Source: Candidatus Gastranaerophilales bacterium
GTDB taxonomy: Bacteria; Cyanobacteriota; Vampirovibrionia; Gastranaerophilales; Gastranaerophilaceae
Length of the DNA: 64,000 nt
Assembly: GCA_944326525.1 (NCBI GenBank)
Contig: CALVEG010000001.1
Location: forward strand, 1 to 64,000
Direction of reading: 5' to 3'
In this document: positions 1 to 8,376 of the stretch, piece after piece
How positions within the stretch are numbered: position 1 is the stretch's first letter
How the letters are laid out: the number at the start of each line of letters is the position of its first letter
Notes under the pieces: model-generated
Seen by the model: only the letters and a program-made list of their open reading frames with translations
The model's database searches: none
Told to the model about the DNA's origin: nothing
Position numbers and translations under genes: made by a program

Positions 1-1389
1 TTTTTGGAAAAATACGGAGTTTTAGGTGAACTTGGCACCGGCGACACAATTCAGGTAATAAACCCTGAATATGAAGCAGCTTGGGATGATTATTACGATG
101 AATATAACAAATGGCAGTCAGAAAAACCTGATCCAAATGATGAAATTTATTATGATACAGTAACAGAAGAATCAAATGTTTATGAACAATTTACTGAAGG
201 TACAGCAGGAGGATGTTATACATCTGTAATAAATCCTTGCAGCAGCTGTTATCTTGGAGTTTTGCATTTTTGTGATGTTTTGGAACATATGCTTGACGTT
301 GGTGAACATGAAACTTCTGATGGAACAAAATTTACTATAGATTCATTTAGCCCTTCTTATGGAGGTTATCCAGGTGGTCACTGGTGGGTTGATGGACAGC
401 AAAGTGAAAGTATTCATAATACTGGTGGTAGCGCATCTATAATGGAAGAAATGCGAAAGGCACTTGAAGGCAAGTATTGTTGCGGCGAAGAACACGATGC
501 CGATGATTCTACTCATTATATTGATTGTCCGACATCCTGGAGTGGATGCGGAAGCAAGCACGAGTTAGATTGTAACGAAGCTGAACCATGTGATGGCAAT
601 ATGCTTGTTACCGACAAAATTGAAGATTTATATTATGATTTTTATTTGAGATTTTATGATAATTCTAAAGGTAGCAAGCTTGATTTAAATGATCCAGATG
701 ATGCTGATTTATTCCGTCGTATGATTCACCTTGTTGAACACGATTTAAAATGGGCTTTATCTGAAGAAAAATTTGACCAAGAAGCTTATGATGAAGATAT
801 GGCGGATTGGGAAGCAAGAAAGCCGACAGAACCGACGGTTGCACAATATATAGACCAAGAAACCAGAGCGATAAAAGATTTGGACAAAGCGCAATGGTAT
901 GTAAACTTGTGGCACAGAATGAACGGCACAAGTGATTTTAAAGCGGGCTTTGGCAACAGCGAAGACTACATTGCAGGTAACGGCTGGGCAAGCAAATCAG
1001 AAACAGATCAAAACTGGGCAGTCTTAAAAGACGGCGATATGAACAGTGAAGAATACTTAAAATATGCAATAGAAAACGGTTTAATTACTTTAGAACAAGT
1101 ACAGTTTGTAGATCCATCCGACAGTACAAGCGGAATAGAAAATGCACAATGGACATCAATAGTATTCTCAACCGCTCAGGATATAACCGAACAGAAAGAT
1201 CAAATTGCAATAACGAAGGCAGAAACCGAATACAATCAAACATTAAGAGAAATAGAAGCAAAAGACAAAGAATATGATACTCAGATCAAGAAACTTGATA
1301 CAGAGCACAATGCACTCCAGACAGAATACGACAGCATCAAGAGTGTAATCGAAAAGAACGTTGAAAGAAGCTTCAAAATCTTCTCATAA
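1..1389 (+). CDS. Orphan Cys-rich protein with C-terminal coiled coil (5' partial)
   Basis: The reading frame is open to the window edge, so the N terminus is missing; the TTG at position 4 is not a convincing start. I do not recognise the family. The visible part is acidic. It has a Cys/His-rich stretch at about residues 70-200 (CSSCY, CCGEEH, SGCGSKHELDC), a Trp/Tyr-rich middle, and a predicted coiled coil over the last 60 residues ending in VERSFKIFS. No membrane segment is visible in this part. Codon use changes within the gene: the second half favours A-ending codons (gta, ata, tta, aca) more than the first. It converges on the acyltransferase gene, 5 bp away. Confidence 0.6.
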   Translation, partial: FLEKYGVLGELGTGDTIQVINPEYEAAWDDYYDEYNKWQSEKPDPNDEIYYDTVTEESNVYEQFTEGTAGGCYTSVINPCSSCYLGVLHFCDVLEHMLDVGEHETSDGTKFTIDSFSPSYGGYPGGHWWVDGQQSESIHNTGGSASIMEEMRKALEGKYCCGEEHDADDSTHYIDCPTSWSGCGSKHELDCNEAEPCDGNMLVTDKIEDLYYDFYLRFYDNSKGSKLDLNDPDDADLFRRMIHLVEHDLKWALSEEKFDQEAYDEDMADWEARKPTEPTVAQYIDQETRAIKDLDKAQWYVNLWHRMNGTSDFKAGFGNSEDYIAGNGWASKSETDQNWAVLKDGDMNSEEYLKYAIENGLITLEQVQFVDPSDSTSGIENAQWTSIVFSTAQDITEQKDQIAITKAETEYNQTLREIEAKDKEYDTQIKKLDTEHNALQTEYDSIKSVIEKNVERSFKIFS

Positions 1390-1394
1390 ATTGA

Positions 1395-2294
1395 TTAATC
1401 TTTGAATAAGTCATAAAAATGATAAAATTGTAATGGACTTTTTAAAGTAATTTTTTCCATAAATTCGACGTAAGATTTTTCCAAATTACAAAGGTTTGAG
1501 AAATTATGTTTATGTAAATGAATTGTATAAGTATCGTTTTTAGTTTTAAGCGCAATAACGAAATAAATAGGAACTTCCATTAATTGGGCAAGTTTAAAGC
1601 TGCCGACAGGCAAGTCAATTTTATGTCCGAAAAGTGTTGTTTCAAAAACGGCTGCATTCGTGTTTTCTGCGAGTCTATCCCCTGCAATAAAAGTGACACA
1701 TCCTTTATCCAAGCTTTCTTTAAGTCTTATTGATGTTGAAATTCCAATATCTTCTACATAAAAATAATTAACCGGAATGCTTGGAGCAATTTTACTTATG
1801 AAATTATTGAAAATTTGACTTTGGGTGCGGCTTAAAAATACGTTAACTTTAAATTCCGGCCAGAAATCATTGTTTATAAAAAAACTTCTCATAACGTCAG
1901 TGTTTCCTATGTGTGAACATAAACAGAAAACACCTTGCTTTTTATAAAAATCATTGTAAAAAAGCTCTTTTTCTTCTTCTGATGCAAAAAGGATTTTTTT
2001 CTTATCATAATTATTAGAAAAAATTTCTATTTTATCAGCAAGTAAAAATCCGTAAGAAAGAAAATGTTTAAAAGAATTCCATAAAGATGGTTTTAATCCA
2101 GTTAGAGGCTCAATTACCATAAGATATTTTTTCGAATATTTTCTTATTTCTTTCGCAAATAAAAAAGTGAAAAAAGTTACAATGAAAGCAACTAAATAGA
2201 GAGCTTTTTTGCCAAAAATCTTATACAAATACCATGAAAACCAAAGTCGTTTCTCTCCTGCAGCTTGTTCCTTTATTTGGTACCATTTTTTCAT
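1395..2294 (-). CDS. LpxL/HtrB-like lysophospholipid acyltransferase of the polyene-like cluster
   Basis: This 299-residue protein belongs to the lysophospholipid acyltransferase (LPLAT) superfamily, which moves acyl chains onto lipid or glycolipid acceptors at the inner membrane. An N-terminal hydrophobic segment (about residues 29-47, LYLVAFIVTFFTFLFA) is followed by the catalytic block SHIGNTDVMR, which fits the HX4(D/E) acyltransferase motif loosely. A second conserved-looking block is FIAGDRL. Aryl polyene clusters carry such an enzyme (ApeD type), and the neighbours here match that setting. It is divergent from the PPTase gene. No strong ribosome site precedes the ATG. A lipid A acyltransferase role is the alternative. 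Confidence 0.72.
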   Translation of the reverse strand: MKKWYQIKEQAAGEKRLWFSWYLYKIFGKKALYLVAFIVTFFTFLFAKEIRKYSKKYLMVIEPLTGLKPSLWNSFKHFLSYGFLLADKIEIFSNNYDKKKILFASEEEKELFYNDFYKKQGVFCLCSHIGNTDVMRSFFINNDFWPEFKVNVFLSRTQSQIFNNFISKIAPSIPVNYFYVEDIGISTSIRLKESLDKGCVTFIAGDRLAENTNAAVFETTLFGHKIDLPVGSFKLAQLMEVPIYFVIALKTKNDTYTIHLHKHNFSNLCNLEKSYVEFMEKITLKSPLQFYHFYDLFKD

Positions 2295-2306
2295 TTCTGA
2301 TAATCT

Positions 2307-2336
2307 TTGCTTCTTTTTTTATTAATATGGTATTAT
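2307..2336 (+). promoter_or_regulatory. Putative promoter of a leaderless PPTase transcript
   Basis: TTGCTT (2307-2312) and TATTAT (2331-2336) are separated by 18 bp. The -10 box ends 6 bp before the ATG at 2343, so transcription would be expected to start on or next to the start codon. No Shine-Dalgarno sequence is present. Confidence 0.5.
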
Positions 2337-2342
2337 TTTAGC

Positions 2343-3011
2343 ATGGAAATATTCTATTTAGATATTAACAATTTTTCAGAGTTATTAAAGGACAGGATAA
2401 TCGAAAATTTTCCGTCAGGTTCCGAATTAAAGAAAAGACAGATTGAATTCGCATTCGGAAGATTTTTAATTTCTATTGTGGGTAAAAATTTTTATAATAT
2501 TTCAAATACTGAAATTATTATTAAAAATAAAAAACCGTATTTTGTTACGGGTGGAATTAATTTTAGTTTATCTCACAGTAAAGGGATTGTACTTGCCGCA
2601 TTTGATAAGGTTCCAGTTGGGGCGGATGTGGAATTTATGCGTGATAGAAATTTTGAAAAGTTATTTGAATATTATAACCTTGAACCACAAAAAAAAGATG
2701 CTGAAACTTTTTACAGGTTTTGGACAGAATATGAAGCCGGAATTAAGCTTCAGCAAAAGCCCAAAAGTTATCTTTCAATGAAATTTTTACGGGAATTTAT
2801 TTTATCAATTGCAAGTTCAGAATCTCTGGATATTAAAAGTATGCTTAGTATATACGAGCTTAAAAGCCCAAGTGCAAGAACAAACCCGAGTGAACTTATG
2901 AGCTTAAAACTTGTTAAAGCTAACAGTGAAAATGAAGTTACTGTTGTAATGCATGAGATAAATACTGCATCATTAGAATTTTTTGACCCGTTAAATCTGA
3001 AAACAGAATAA
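2343..3011 (+). CDS. 4'-phosphopantetheinyl transferase (Sfp/ApeB type)
   Basis: It transfers phosphopantetheine from CoA to acyl carrier proteins, most likely the two ACPs of this cluster. The Sfp-type signatures are clear: NFSLSHS at 73-79, the Mg-binding GADVE (D95, E97) and FWTEYEAGIK (W127, E131, K135). I prefer the ATG at 2343 (222 residues) to an upstream TTG, because a -10 box sits just before it. The last 81 codons lie antisense to the 3' end of the MMPL gene. The PPTase core ends before that overlap, a plausible last strand (REFILSIASS) lies inside it, and the final 45 or so residues look like read-through of non-PPTase sequence. The usual stop may have been lost. Confidence 0.82.
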   Translation: MEIFYLDINNFSELLKDRIIENFPSGSELKKRQIEFAFGRFLISIVGKNFYNISNTEIIIKNKKPYFVTGGINFSLSHSKGIVLAAFDKVPVGADVEFMRDRNFEKLFEYYNLEPQKKDAETFYRFWTEYEAGIKLQQKPKSYLSMKFLREFILSIASSESLDIKSMLSIYELKSPSARTNPSELMSLKLVKANSENEVTVVMHEINTASLEFFDPLNLKTE

Positions 3012-4918
3012 TCAAGTCCAAAGCCTGTTATCAAAAATATTGCAAGAATGTGGAATAAATTTATATCTCCAAACAAGCTTACAGCACTGATTGAGAATAA
3101 GCTTGCTAAAATTGAAGGAAGTATAATTTTGTGAGCATTTTTGAAAGAAAAAATACACCCCAAAATTATGTACAAAACAACGAATATAGGTCCTAAAATC
3201 CATAAACATACAAGCCTGATTTCTTTTATTCTTTTTGAAATTTCTAACGGAAGATTAATGTATCTGATATTGGAAATTTCTTTTAAAATTTCAGGTGATT
3301 GGAAATTATAAACAATCATTAAAGAATGAGTTTTGTCAATTAAGAATTCCTGAGCCGAGGAAAGATTATTCAAGCCATCTTCAAGAGTTATAATTGGGGT
3401 AAGTTTTCTCAGATTTTTTATTTCATCTTGTGTCAAATATTCCGATAATTTGTCAATTTTTTTGTCATAAAGTTTTTTAATTAAATTTTGGTTTTCTATT
3501 TGTCGCATTTTTGATGGAATAAATTTACTCAAAGAATAATATGAAATATTGTTTCCGTTTAATCTTTTTGCAATTAATTCCTCTTTTTCAAGAAGTTGTT
3601 CCAAGTTTTCACCTTCAACGATAATGAAGGAAGAATTGGCATTTTGTAAAGAAACTTCGCTGTATAAATTTTCGGCATTTTGCATTTCTTTTGAAGGTCT
3701 GTACATGTTTCTGACATCATCACTGAAATGTATTCTATACAATCCTGCTGCTATTACAATCAAAAGGGCTGCTAAAATTATTTTACTGAATTTGAAGTTG
3801 AATTTTTGCTGTGATTTTTGTGGAGGCAAAAATTCATAAAACAACACAACAATTAAATATACTGTAATTAATCCAGCGGATGTGAATACTGCCATTTGTT
3901 TTAAAATTTCTATTCCGGAAATAGCAAGCATAAAAAGTGCACTTACGGTTGAAAACATGCTGACAGTCAAACTTTTTATAATTTTATTAACATCTGATTC
4001 CATCAAATAATGAAGTGAATAATCTACGCAGATTCCGATTAATGTAGTGGAAAAAACAAATGTGAGAATGTGGATTGAATTAAATAAAAGATTTGTTACA
4101 CAATATCCAATTCCCATTCCTGCAGCTAATGTTGTTAATATTGGCAAAAGTATTTTTAAAGATTTAAAATACCATAGTACAATTACGCATACAAATAGTG
4201 TTGAAATTATGCAAATAAAATTAATTTCGTTCATGGAGCTTTCACTTGCATAATATGCGTGGATTGGAGCTCCTGTCAGATAGACATTTAATTCTCTGTT
4301 TGTATAATATTTTTGAAGTTCAACAAGTTTTTTTACTTCTTTGTTCATTAATGATGGCGAAAGTGCAAGTTTGTCATCTGCTTTAAGGTTTATGATTTCA
4401 TAATATTTGCCTTTTAGTGAAGTTTGGACATTTATATTTGTTCCAAGATTCATTATAAAATTTGTTAAAAGCAAATATGGATCTTCCTCTAGAGGTAAAA
4501 TTGAAAATCCAAACGGATCATATAAATTATTTATTGCATTCTGGCTAATTTTTTCGTAATTTTCGGATTTTAAAGTCTTGTAGTCTGATTCTGAAAGCAG
4601 ACCTGATTTATGGTTTTTGTAAAATTCAAGTGTTTTTTGATAGTCTGTACGCTTAATCTTAAAACTTTCAGAAGAGATATTTTGTTCAAAACTTTCTTTG
4701 GTTTTTTCTAAAAGTTCAAGATTTTCACTTTCTAAAAGTACATTTATATTTGCAGAATATTTTCCGCTTAAATTAATTAAAATTTCGTCTTGAATTCCGT
4801 TTGAAAAAAATGCTTTTAATAAATTGGTTTCAACTTTTTTCGGATGCAAAAATGCAAGCGATGCTATTAAAACCAAAATTAATACAAATATTATTCTAAA
4901 TAAATTTATCTTTTTCAT
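2768..4918 (-). CDS. MMPL/RND-type lipid exporter of the polyene-like cluster
   Basis: This 716-residue inner-membrane transporter fits the MMPL exporters (ApeM type) found in aryl polyene clusters. An N-terminal membrane anchor is followed by a large periplasmic domain, a bundle of about five helices (around residues 230-370), a second periplasmic domain, and a final bundle with FHILAIFLITGFGLDYSVFRF and the last helix FVLALGLLSSYILSILLI. The ATG at 4918 overlaps the stop of the LolA-like gene as ATGA, which suggests translational coupling; a TTG three codons upstream is less likely. It would move the finished lipid, perhaps handing it to the LolA-like protein. Its 3' end overlaps the PPTase gene by 244 bp, tail to tail. 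Confidence 0.8.
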   Translation of the reverse strand: MKKINLFRIIFVLILVLIASLAFLHPKKVETNLLKAFFSNGIQDEILINLSGKYSANINVLLESENLELLEKTKESFEQNISSESFKIKRTDYQKTLEFYKNHKSGLLSESDYKTLKSENYEKISQNAINNLYDPFGFSILPLEEDPYLLLTNFIMNLGTNINVQTSLKGKYYEIINLKADDKLALSPSLMNKEVKKLVELQKYYTNRELNVYLTGAPIHAYYASESSMNEINFICIISTLFVCVIVLWYFKSLKILLPILTTLAAGMGIGYCVTNLLFNSIHILTFVFSTTLIGICVDYSLHYLMESDVNKIIKSLTVSMFSTVSALFMLAISGIEILKQMAVFTSAGLITVYLIVVLFYEFLPPQKSQQKFNFKFSKIILAALLIVIAAGLYRIHFSDDVRNMYRPSKEMQNAENLYSEVSLQNANSSFIIVEGENLEQLLEKEELIAKRLNGNNISYYSLSKFIPSKMRQIENQNLIKKLYDKKIDKLSEYLTQDEIKNLRKLTPIITLEDGLNNLSSAQEFLIDKTHSLMIVYNFQSPEILKEISNIRYINLPLEISKRIKEIRLVCLWILGPIFVVLYIILGCIFSFKNAHKIILPSILASLFSISAVSLFGDINLFHILAIFLITGFGLDYSVFRFNGSKNSNDAVFISCITTVTSFSLLALTSFKLISSLGFVLALGLLSSYILSILLISRDSELAIDKINSRKNFIER

Positions 4919-5433
4919 AATTCGCAATAAAAGTTTATTTCTGTGGTTACTCCGTTTGTTGTTTCGATAATCATTTTGTTAATACTTTTTGTGCCGTTGA
5001 TTGTAATACTTTCAAGCTGTCCGAAAGCCGGAGATTTTTCTTTCGGTTTTAAGACGAGAGTCCATTCTTGATCATTGGAAGTGTAGTATAAATTGAAATT
5101 TTTATTAATATATGAGTAATCTTTGTTTGCAATTCCTGTTATAATTCCGCTTATCTGTTTGTTGCTGTCGGAAGTGTAGGTTGAGGTTGATTTAACAGGG
5201 TAAAGGGTTTCAAAGATTACTCCTTTATCTTTTATAAATTTAAAATTTCCGCCGGATTTTAGAGTTTTATTTCGGATTGTTTTTTCTTGAGTAAATTTAC
5301 AAGTTACGCTGTTGAGCTGAGGAAGCTTTTCGGCAACTTCTCTTGCTGTTGTCGGGCTGTCAAAGGTGCCTTCCGCATAAGAAATTTGCGCAAAAAATAT
5401 TAATATAAATAATGCTAAATATTTTTTAAACAT
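4915..5433 (-). CDS. LolA-like periplasmic lipid/lipoprotein carrier
   Basis: This 172-residue secreted protein resembles LolA (COG2834). Its signal peptide covers residues 1-20, with cleavage likely after ISYA. The mature part has the LolA-like opening of an amphipathic helix and then FTQEKTIRNKTLKSGGNFKF, followed by alternating beta strands. Aryl polyene clusters include a LolA-like gene that probably shuttles the polyene lipid to the outer membrane. The start at 5433 follows AAGGACTTGA and overlaps the thioesterase gene by 19 bp. It ends in an ATGA overlap with the MMPL exporter. A general lipoprotein-carrier role cannot be excluded, but the operon context argues for a cluster-specific one. 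Confidence 0.75.
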   Translation of the reverse strand: MFKKYLALFILIFFAQISYAEGTFDSPTTAREVAEKLPQLNSVTCKFTQEKTIRNKTLKSGGNFKFIKDKGVIFETLYPVKSTSTYTSDSNKQISGIITGIANKDYSYINKNFNLYYTSNDQEWTLVLKPKEKSPAFGQLESITINGTKSINKMIIETTNGVTTEINFYCEL

Positions 5434-5834
5434 TCAAGTCCTTTTCTGAATTTTTCAGGTGCTTGGTATAAGCTTTTTCCTGATTTTACATCTACACAAA
5501 TTTGCATTGTTTTAGCTTTAAATAAAACTTCATCAGTTGCGGAATCTTTTATAATATATTGTATATTTAATCCTGGCTCAAGTTCTTCTAAAATAGCTTT
5601 CACTGTGAGCTTTTGTCCGAAAATCGCGGATTTAATAAATTTCATTTCTGTTTTTGCTATAGGATACATAATACCGTCGAGTTTCATATTGTCGTAATTG
5701 TAACCGATTTTTTTCAGTAATTCACATCTTGCCGCTTCCATGAATTTAAAATAATTGCCGTGCCAAACAACATTCATAGGATCAAGATCGTAGAATTGCA
5801 CTTCAATAGTAGTTTCTGCTTCTGCTAAATGCAT
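5415..5834 (-). CDS. 4HBT-family acyl-CoA/ACP thioesterase
   Basis: This 139-residue hotdog thioesterase has the 4-hydroxybenzoyl-CoA thioesterase signature YDLDPMNVVWHGNYFKFMEA near the N terminus, where the first Asp of the motif is the expected catalytic residue. It would hydrolyse the acyl-ACP or acyl-CoA product and matches the ApeK type of aryl polyene clusters. The ATG at 5834 is chosen because AGAGGA lies 7 bp upstream; an in-frame TTG six codons earlier overlaps that ribosome site. It lies between the ligase/dehydratase and the LolA-like gene and overlaps the latter. Confidence 0.82.
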   Translation of the reverse strand: MHLAEAETTIEVQFYDLDPMNVVWHGNYFKFMEAARCELLKKIGYNYDNMKLDGIMYPIAKTEMKFIKSAIFGQKLTVKAILEELEPGLNIQYIIKDSATDEVLFKAKTMQICVDVKSGKSLYQAPEKFRKGLECLKNI

Positions 5835-5870
5835 ACAATATCCTCTTTGCAAAAATTATACACCAAAATG

Positions 5871-7427
5871 TTATTTGATAAAAGTGCCTGATGAAAAAGG
5901 TTTTTCGTTATCAGTAAACGTGAAATCAACAGAAAGTTCATTGTTTTTGAGGTTTAAGATTACTTTGTTATCAGGTTTTATAACTCTTGAGAATTTTATT
6001 TTTTTTATTTTGTTTTGCGAAATTTTTATTCCAAAAACATCCTCTGCTAAATTGTGTGCATATAATAATTGAACAACTCCCGGCAAAATCGGAATATCAG
6101 GGAAATGCCCGTTGAAAAAGTTGCTGTTTCTTAAAAATGCAAGTGTGATTTTGGCAGATTCATTTGTGTTTTTTTTCTCGAAAATTAGCGGGTAAGAAAG
6201 ATTTAAGTTAAAGATTTTAATGATTTTTGTTTTATCAATTTTCCCTGCTGAAGTTTTTGGAATTTCAGGTAAAAATCTCCATCTTTGCGGAATTATTTCG
6301 CAAAATTGTTTAAGATGCAGTTTTAAATTCTGTATCATTTCAATACTTCCAATATCTAAAAGCTTTTCTTTTCCTTCTGTTGTTAAAACTATTGCGGCTC
6401 CCGCTTTTTCTCCGATTTTTAGACAATAAGCATCTTCTACGTAATTTTGTTTTTTTAGATAATTTTCGATTTCTTCTGCTGAAATTCTTTTTTCTTGAAT
6501 CTTTAATATTCTGTCGTTGCGGCCTATAATTTTAAATTTTCGGTCTATTTTTTCAATGTTATCATTTAGTATAAGCTCATCTTCAAGAAAATAAGGTGAT
6601 TTGATTATTGTACCTTTGTTGTCGTCTGAAATTAGTTCAATATCTCCAAAAACTGTTAAAAATCCTTTGTCAAATGATGTTCTGTATCCGATTGTACCGG
6701 TTTCGGTGCTTCCGTAGCTGTCTACAATTCTTGAGGTTTTTGAAAAATATTCAAAAACTCTTTCCGGCATTTTATCGCCTCCTGCATATATAAGTTCTGC
6801 AGGGTGTGGGTTGTCATCATATTTTGCCATCATATCAAGAAATGATGGGGATGATACAAATACGTGTTTTTCATTTTTTATCTGTTCAGGAAATTTTATT
6901 ATGTCTGTGTCGATAACGTGTCCGTATATAAGCGGATATAAAAATGCATAAACAAATCCGAACATATGTGACATTTTTACTGTAGAAACAAACGGTAAAT
7001 CTTTGTTAACCGGAAATAATTTATCCATAACAACGGTTTCTAAATAAGTGTTTTGTAAACTTTTTCTTACACATTTAGGTATTCCGGTTGAGCCTGATGT
7101 GTAAAAATTAATTATTACGTCGTTAAAATTTGGAACTTTTAAGTCAAAAACTTCGCATAATTCTGGTTCTATATTTTTTATGTAGTCCTCGTTAAAATGA
7201 TTAATCTTTGTGCTGTCAGAAAGAAAATATAATTCTTTTTCTGAAAAAATTCCTGCTAAAAAATTTTTAACAAATTCAAAATTGCTGTCGCAAGTTATTA
7301 AAAATTTTGTTCTTCTATCAGATTTGAGCGCACTAACTATCGGGCAGATTATTTTTTTTAATTCTTGCCAAGTAATATAGTTGCCATTGCTTCTTATAAC
7401 AATTTTTTCATCACCAAAATTAAACAT
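5871..7427 (-). CDS. AMP-dependent ligase fused to a FabZ/FabA-like dehydratase
   Basis: This 518-residue protein has two domains. Residues 1 to about 400 are an acyl-AMP ligase with the P-loop TSGSTGIPK (110-118), YGSTETG (238-244), GRNDRILK (303-310) and the C-terminal lysine in TSAGKIDK (K396). Residues 425-518 are a hotdog 3-hydroxyacyl-ACP dehydratase with NGHFPDIPILPGV (439-451, H441 expected catalytic). In aryl polyene clusters these are the ApeH (ligase) and ApeI (dehydratase) functions. The ligase would load an aryl or acyl starter onto an ACP and the dehydratase would form the double bonds. It overlaps the upstream membrane-protein gene by 8 bp. Confidence 0.85.
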   Translation of the reverse strand: MFNFGDEKIVIRSNGNYITWQELKKIICPIVSALKSDRRTKFLITCDSNFEFVKNFLAGIFSEKELYFLSDSTKINHFNEDYIKNIEPELCEVFDLKVPNFNDVIINFYTSGSTGIPKCVRKSLQNTYLETVVMDKLFPVNKDLPFVSTVKMSHMFGFVYAFLYPLIYGHVIDTDIIKFPEQIKNEKHVFVSSPSFLDMMAKYDDNPHPAELIYAGGDKMPERVFEYFSKTSRIVDSYGSTETGTIGYRTSFDKGFLTVFGDIELISDDNKGTIIKSPYFLEDELILNDNIEKIDRKFKIIGRNDRILKIQEKRISAEEIENYLKKQNYVEDAYCLKIGEKAGAAIVLTTEGKEKLLDIGSIEMIQNLKLHLKQFCEIIPQRWRFLPEIPKTSAGKIDKTKIIKIFNLNLSYPLIFEKKNTNESAKITLAFLRNSNFFNGHFPDIPILPGVVQLLYAHNLAEDVFGIKISQNKIKKIKFSRVIKPDNKVILNLKNNELSVDFTFTDNEKPFSSGTFIK

Positions 7428-7818
7428 TATATTTTCTCTTAAATCGGAGTCGTATCAGATATTCTATTGCAAATAAAAGCCCTGTTAAAAGATACGAAAT
7501 GCATCCGTTATAAATCGTCCATACTTTTGAACTCATAAATATTGTAGCAAAAGAAATCATAAAATTAAATATTAAAAATACACACCATACGTAAGTAAGT
7601 TTTCTGGTGTAATCTTTAACAATGTCCGGAAGCTCTTTGCCTTCCATAAGTTTAGCAAATTTTTGAATAATTGTTTCTTCGGTAAAAGTTGAGGAGAAGA
7701 ATATTGTGAATATTACAAGATTAATTGTTGCAGGATAATACTTTAACGCAATCAGACCTGTAAAATGAAACAGACCAATAACTGCAAATGTGAATATTAT
7801 CGGGAAAATCATTCTCAT
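7420..7818 (-). CDS. Small membrane protein of the COG4648 (ApeG-like) type
   Basis: This 132-residue hydrophobic protein has four predicted membrane segments (about residues 4-23, 31-45, 72-93 and 98-120). Between the second and third lies a short basic cytosolic loop with EETIIQKFAKLMEG. The pattern matches the small COG4648 membrane protein found between the ACP and AMP-ligase genes of aryl polyene clusters; its biochemical role is not known. It is translationally coupled to both neighbours, with a 4-bp overlap with the upstream ACP and 8 bp with the downstream ligase. Assignment rests on size, topology and position. Confidence 0.68.
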   Translation of the reverse strand: MRMIFPIIFTFAVIGLFHFTGLIALKYYPATINLVIFTIFFSSTFTEETIIQKFAKLMEGKELPDIVKDYTRKLTYVWCVFLIFNFMISFATIFMSSKVWTIYNGCISYLLTGLLFAIEYLIRLRFKRKYNV

Positions 7819-8066
7819 AATAATTCTTCAATAGCGTTTATAACATCGTTTATTGTTTTAATTTGCTTAAAATTTTCCGGTGGAATTTTCTTTTGCGTAA
7901 ACTGTTGAACTCTTACTGCCAAATCTACAGCATCAATACTATCAAGGTCCAAATCTTCAAATAGACTTGCATCTAAAGTAATTAAATTCTTATCAACTTC
8001 AAAATCTTCGACAAGTATTGAAGTAAGTTTATTCAGTATATCATCTCTTGTTAATTTCCCGTTCAT
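7815..8066 (-). CDS. Acyl carrier protein, second copy (ApeF-like)
   Basis: This 83-residue ACP has the attachment motif DLDLDSIDAVDL, with Ser43 as the expected phosphopantetheine site. It carries the growing acyl chain between enzymes of the cluster and should be modified by the adjacent PPTase. It starts 2 bp after the first ACP gene and ends in an ATGA overlap with the membrane-protein gene. Two consecutive, non-identical ACPs are typical of aryl polyene clusters and unusual for housekeeping fatty acid synthesis, where one acpP normally sits with fabD, fabG and fabF. None of those genes is nearby. Confidence 0.88.
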   Translation of the reverse strand: MNGKLTRDDILNKLTSILVEDFEVDKNLITLDASLFEDLDLDSIDAVDLAVRVQQFTQKKIPPENFKQIKTINDVINAIEELL

Positions 8067-8068
8067 TC

Positions 8069-8326
8069 TTAATCCTGTTTGTTTTGTTTTTCAATAAAAT
8101 CTGCAAGTGTTTTTACCGAATAAAAATATTCTTTATTTTCCTCGTTGTCAGAACCGATTGAAATATTGTATTTTTTCTTCAATGCCATGCCTAATTCCAA
8201 GGCGTCAATAGAATCCAATCCTAATCCGTCAATAAATAAAGGCGCATTTTCATCAATATCATCAGGAGTAATGTCTTCCAAATCAAGAGTATCTATGATT
8301 AGTTGCTTAATTTCGTCCGTAATCAT
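8069..8326 (-). CDS. Acyl carrier protein, first copy (ApeE-like)
   Basis: This 85-residue ACP has the site LGLDSIDALEL, with Ser39 as the expected attachment residue, followed by the helix-II pattern of ACPs. I set the start at 8326 rather than the ATG at 8341: AAGGTGAG lies just upstream of 8326, and a good sigma-70 promoter ends only 7 bp before 8341, so the longer form would have no leader. It is the first gene of the operon that runs through the second ACP, membrane protein, ligase/dehydratase, thioesterase and LolA-like genes to the MMPL exporter. Confidence 0.88.
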   Translation of the reverse strand: MITDEIKQLIIDTLDLEDITPDDIDENAPLFIDGLGLDSIDALELGMALKKKYNISIGSDNEENKEYFYSVKTLADFIEKQNKQD

Positions 8327-8347
8327 CTTCTCACCTTCCATATATCC

Positions 8348-8376
8348 ATGATAATCTAAGCTTTTTGTAAAGTCAA
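8348..8376 (-). promoter_or_regulatory. Sigma-70 promoter of the polyene-like operon
   Basis: Reading on the minus strand, TTGACT (8371-8376) and TATCAT (8348-8353) are separated by exactly 17 bp. The predicted transcription start falls near 8341, 15 bp upstream of the first ACP start codon. No operator-like palindrome is seen. Confidence 0.65.

Follow-up and report, generated by a model that had tools for sequence, protein, structure and literature searches.

The nine genes near the left end of the window (the whole 64,000-base stretch analysed, bases 1-64000 of contig C1; G000:C1:1-64000) very probably form the accessory half of a genuine aryl polyene (APE) cluster, the other half of which, carrying apeC, apeD, apeO, apeP, apeQ and apeR, is found on another contig of this genome, C4. 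Aryl polyenes are yellow antioxidant lipids of the bacterial envelope. The genome (G000) is a draft of 1.95 Mb in 27 contigs, 98.5% complete, and C1 is 444 kb long. The two halves together contain a ketosynthase (KS)-chain-length factor (CLF) pair, a second KS, a ketoreductase (KR) and dehydratases (DHs), two acyl carrier proteins (ACPs) with the ligase ApeH, a thioesterase, acyltransferases, an exporter and a LolA-like carrier. The set is thus real and was correctly recognised from the sequence, and in the whole-genome view it is ordinary: an aryl polyene gene set in split form.

Nine ORFs were confirmed at 1395-8341 and constitute an apeE-F-G-H/I-K-L-M-(PPTase)-J block (ape gene names follow PMC8253772). 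Profile searches and matches to the Ape proteins of E. coli CFT073, which were taken from NC_004431 and compared by BLASTP with the proteins of G000, verified the families assigned by the sequence-only reading, with the ligase and the dehydratase residing in one ORF:

1395..2294, minus strand: apeJ-type acyltransferase, 299 aa, with an SHIGN motif; 27% identity to residues 268-550 of E. coli ApeJ (E 1e-26)
2307..3011 (start may be 2346), plus strand: 4'-phosphopantetheinyl transferase (PPTase), AcpT/HetI-like; NCBIfam AcpT 1.9e-06 and AusB 1.4e-08, both below cut-off
2768..4927, minus strand: apeM, MMPL/RND exporter; Pfam MMPL 3.4e-05; 22% identity to E. coli ApeM over 668 aa (E 1.6e-38)
4915..5433, minus strand: apeL, LolA-like carrier; Pfam LolA 1e-04, just under cut-off; LolA2_flexi 5.2e-07, below cut-off
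5415..5852, minus strand: apeK, 4HBT thioesterase; TIGR00051 1e-20, over cut-off; 36% identity to E. coli ApeK
5871..7427, minus strand: apeH-apeI fusion, AMP-ligase with an ApeI dehydratase domain; Pfam AMP-binding 2.1e-19 and ApeI-like 4.6e-07, both over cut-off
7420..7818, minus strand: apeG, COG4648-type membrane protein; 42% identity to E. coli ApeG (E 1e-24)
7815..8066, minus strand: apeF, ACP; NF003757 1.5e-30, over cut-off; 50% identity to E. coli ApeF
8069..8341 (start may be 8326), minus strand: apeE, ACP; NF006617 8.7e-27, over cut-off; 65% identity to E. coli ApeE

The acyltransferase and the COG4648-type protein of the window had no Pfam match and were identified by comparison with E. 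coli ApeJ and ApeG, and the window apeJ corresponds only to the acyltransferase half of E. coli ApeJ, the glycosyltransferase half being missing. BLASTP found no significant similarity between the window ApeL and its E. coli counterpart, and the protein was identified solely by its profile matches. The fusion protein is 29% identical to E. coli ApeH and 35% to ApeI, and its ApeI part matches PDB entry 6qsr_A. The nearest named relatives of this starter ligase (85%, 76% and 70%) come from metagenome genomes, two of the three labelled Candidatus Gastranaerophilales. The PPTase and apeM ORFs, on opposite strands, overlap by ~240 bases, 3' end to 3' end (window 2768-3011), and an overlap of ~190-250 bases with a recognisable PPTase tail recurs in loci L007, L011 and L017.

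No KS, CLF or KR gene lies beside the block, as had been remarked, and this is true within the window; the left side of the block is only 1.4 kb from the contig end (window base 1 is contig base 1), so this absence tells little about the genome. A KS-family search of the whole genome found three places, one on C18 and two on C4. By ORF inspection, the C18 place is the housekeeping fab locus (KS, ACP, KR, malonyl transferase, KSIII and PlsX). The two on C4 belong to a segment at C4:3481-8355 (locus L004), 3.5 kb from the start of C4, in which apeD and apeC (PF13723) lie on one strand and apeO, apeP, apeQ and apeR are divergent from them:

C4: apeD, acyltransferase; 32% identity to E. coli ApeD
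C4:4212-4805: apeC, CLF; PDB matches only to 7f28_A and 6qsp_B; 27% identity to E. coli ApeC
C4:4835-5959: apeO, KS; best profile match NF006618; best PDB match 6qsp_A; 38% identity to E. coli ApeO
C4: apeP, DH; Pfam ApeP-like 7.4e-18, over cut-off; best PDB match 6qsr_B; 26% identity to E. coli ApeP
C4: apeQ, KR; 56% identity to E. coli ApeQ; FlxB 2.6e-91, below cut-off
C4:7132-8355: apeR, second KS; NF006587 over cut-off; 55% identity to E. coli ApeR

The catalytic Cys-His-His residues are retained in both KSs (ApeO and ApeR), and the Cys is absent from ApeC. The entries 6qsp, 6qsr and 7f28 are Ape structures of Xenorhabdus and Acinetobacter. After apeR (L004 8384-11970) come a 113-aa protein without a Pfam match, an MFS transporter, a cupin and an alcohol dehydrogenase, some or all of which recur at the KS half in the related genomes G010, G001, G003 and G006.

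These findings bear on the explanations that the sequence-only reading had offered for the missing KS. The genome search for ape-type KS/CLF and KR genes that it had proposed located them at C4:3481-8355, so its guess that the cluster is split was right, and the matches to the E. coli CFT073 locus allow its label 'aryl-polyene-like' to be narrowed to a true APE cluster. Supply of these activities by the housekeeping fatty acid system is not needed, because a dedicated KS, CLF, KR and DH (apeO/apeC/apeR/apeQ/apeP) are encoded on C4, separately from the C18 fab locus. Its other suggestion, a different acylated lipid, may still hold for the head group, since neither a recognised 4-hydroxybenzoate source nor apeB was found in the genome.

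In G000 and in its closest relatives the APE genes occupy two contigs. C1, C4 and C17 have an exact 77-base end in common, which lies within a repeated gene (window 4-1389; the C1 copy of the end is window 1..77); 77 bases is a length typical of an assembler k-mer. If C1 and C4 were joined at this 77-mer, apeD would be ~4.8 kb from apeJ, and the ends are compatible with this spacing. Because the end is common to all three contigs, the assembly cannot place the halves either ~4.8 kb or far apart, and the simple adjacency of C4 and C1 via the 77-mer is not proven, the C17 end carrying the same 77 bases. In G006 and G003, the KS half adjoins genes for a LysR protein, a hydrolase and a flavodoxin-like protein, whose G000 homologues are at the C17 end; this synteny would point partly to C17. 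In G010 and G001, the contig carrying apeE to apeJ appears to terminate in the 3' end of a gene like the repeated one, and the KS-half contig in the 5' end of such a gene. No exact overlap of the corresponding contig ends was found in G001, G009 or G010, and among the 14 genomes of the genus that were examined there is no split-subclade genome that spans the junction. Since G000 is a draft, C1 and C4 are linked only by binning and by the parallel layout in relatives: the E-J block adjoins Nif3-CoaBC-Gmk in G000, G001, G009 and G010, and in the three closest relatives the genes are likewise divided between two contigs, Nif3-CoaBC being the neighbour of the accessory half. Local linkage of the two halves is plausible, but unproven. 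The repeated gene family has 17 matches in the genome, many starting with MGMSASQARLL, and breaks the assembly at several contig ends; its sites include window 4-1389, L004 3-413 and L035 11021-12286.

We found 80 loci with a ligase alignment in relatives and scored which core genes lay no more than 10 kb from the ligase. In 66 of the 80 Candidatus Gastranaerophilales loci, all 13 core genes are present together. In the contiguous layout, R-Q-P-O lies on one strand and C-D-E-F-G-H/I-K-L-M on the other, followed by a PPTase gene running against it, often a methyltransferase gene, and then J. Eight loci contain apeE to apeM without any of C, D and O-R, namely L037-L042, the six closest to the window, L050 and L056. 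As ~10 kb upstream of the ligase is available in L037-L039, L041, L050 and L056, the blocks are truly not adjacent there; the contigs of L040 and L042 are short. In five other loci (L051, L052, L054, L055 and L081), E is faced by the O-R side instead of D, an arrangement that an in-place inversion of the block would produce. The split and reversed layouts suggest that the two blocks move as units. A homologue of the methyltransferase gene apeB, with 39% identity to E. coli ApeB, is present in 47 of the 80 loci and was found nowhere in the genomes of G000, G001, G009, G010 and G003, and neither the glycosyltransferase half of E. coli ApeJ nor ApeN has a match in any of the 80. The ligase profile (E up to 1e-60) hit 103 of the 241 genomes sampled from the order, spread over 23 of 50 genera; these figures count the ligase rather than whole clusters. 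Distribution within the genus is uneven, G004 having neither apeD nor the accessory half. G003, which is 99% complete, contains the KS half (C, D and O-R) alone (L031, G003:C7:1-16000), with ligase and ApeM not found.

Compared with the apeA-R cluster of E. coli CFT073 (PMC8253772), G000 has counterparts of C, D, E, F, G, H, I, J (acyltransferase), K, M, O, P, Q and R by BLASTP and of L by family, and the internal orders O-P-Q-R, C-D and E-F-G-H-I are shared. G000 differs in that the genes are on two contigs, H and I are fused, apeA, apeN and the glycosyltransferase half of ApeJ are missing, apeB has been lost in the subclade, and no chorismate lyase was recognised. The G000 set includes a PPTase gene, which the E. 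coli cluster does not (PMC8253772). In A. baumannii, the structures of ApeO-ApeC and ApeR have been described, as have an N-terminal ligase part of ApeH and a dehydratase named ApeH-ApeP, which implies that ApeH is a fusion there too (PMC8358021); the H-I fusion is thus not new. The KS-CLF ApeO-ApeC and a FabB-like ApeR are common to that system and G000, but A. baumannii belongs to another phylum and has a contiguous cluster, and the 4-hydroxybenzoate starter was demonstrated there (PMC8358021). The contiguous clusters of other Candidatus Gastranaerophilales, such as L011, L012 and L017, have the same 13 core genes, the PPTase and J in the order R-Q-P-O/C-D-E-F-G-HI-K-L-M, and many keep apeB between the PPTase and J.

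If expressed, the pathway would work as follows, judging from the homologous systems characterised in E. coli, Xenorhabdus and Acinetobacter. The PPTase would arm ApeE and ApeF, and ApeH would load an aryl acid onto an ACP. Extension with malonyl units by the ApeO-ApeC KS-CLF and ApeR, reduction by ApeQ and dehydration by ApeI and ApeP would yield a conjugated polyene, which ApeK may release and ApeD and ApeJ may attach to a lipid anchor. ApeM and ApeL would then carry the product to the outer membrane, where it would function as a yellow antioxidant pigment.

The nature of the head group is uncertain, because no recognised 4-hydroxybenzoate source, no apeB and no glycosyltransferase half of ApeJ are present. 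The genome contains no UbiC-type or Rv2949c-type chorismate lyase (PF04345, PF01947), and the absence of an ammonia lyase, observed around the block in the sequence-only reading, extends genome-wide (PAL/HAL/TAL, PF00221). The E. coli APE cluster is likewise without an ammonia lyase, and a gene for a 4-hydroxybenzoate source is not a defining member of an APE cluster, since E. coli draws 4-hydroxybenzoate from the UbiC of ubiquinone synthesis (PMC8253772). It is conceivable, if somewhat doubtful, that this gut lineage of non-photosynthetic cyanobacteria makes an aryl-polyene-type envelope lipid whose aryl acid is taken from the gut, the head not being self-made, and that one subclade does so with two unlinked operons.

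The most serious alternative to a working APE pathway is one in decay, its blocks being lost piecemeal after the split. The disappearance of apeB from G000, G001, G009 and G010 would fit with this, as would the KS half without ligase or ApeM in G003 and the lack of both apeD and the accessory half in G004. However, all of the reading frames are intact, neither KS has lost its catalytic residues, and G000, G001 and G010 are closely similar in both halves (82-97% identity for the KS half and 76-99% for the accessory half), which makes decay improbable. The complete fab locus on C18 and the lack of a KS in the window itself could also mean that the accessory set cooperates with the housekeeping fatty acid synthase to produce a non-polyene acyl lipid, leaving the C4 genes unused; this is very unlikely, given that the KS, CLF, KR and DH on C4 are of ape type and, in most relatives, stand in one cluster with the accessory genes.

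Least probable of all is a flexirubin-type pathway, which would yield an aryl polyene esterified with a dialkylresorcinol. The flexirubin clusters of Bacteroidota contain related KR and LolA-like proteins, and the G000 counterparts match FlxB and LolA2_flexi, but both matches are below cut-off, the KSs fit ape-type profiles best, and no resorcinol-forming genes were found among the ORFs next to either half. We rejected this pathway owing to the weaker profile matches and the absence of an ammonia lyase.

No paper on aryl polyenes in Gastranaerophilales or Vampirovibrionia was found in the literature collection searched, and the one paper there that mentions both arylpolyene and Melainabacteria lists APE clusters solely for Bacteroidetes, Lentisphaerae and Verrucomicrobia. 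The contiguous clusters are of a kind that antiSMASH would probably detect, and they may therefore already figure in unpublished or tabulated records. The APE assignment favoured here extends a widespread envelope pigment pathway to uncultured gut relatives of cyanobacteria and yields testable predictions on their lipids and oxidative-stress tolerance. It also cautions that what looks like a 'KS-less' cluster may, where a contig ends, be one half of an ordinary cluster. Two records among the relatives deserve mention. L040 and L093 both come from BRZ_SG bin60, one being of the split type and the other contiguous, which means either that one genome holds two clusters or that the bin is mixed. 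L103 carries a Gastranaerophilales-type cluster (ligase 40%) in a record labelled 'uncultured Brachyspira', a label that is probably wrong.
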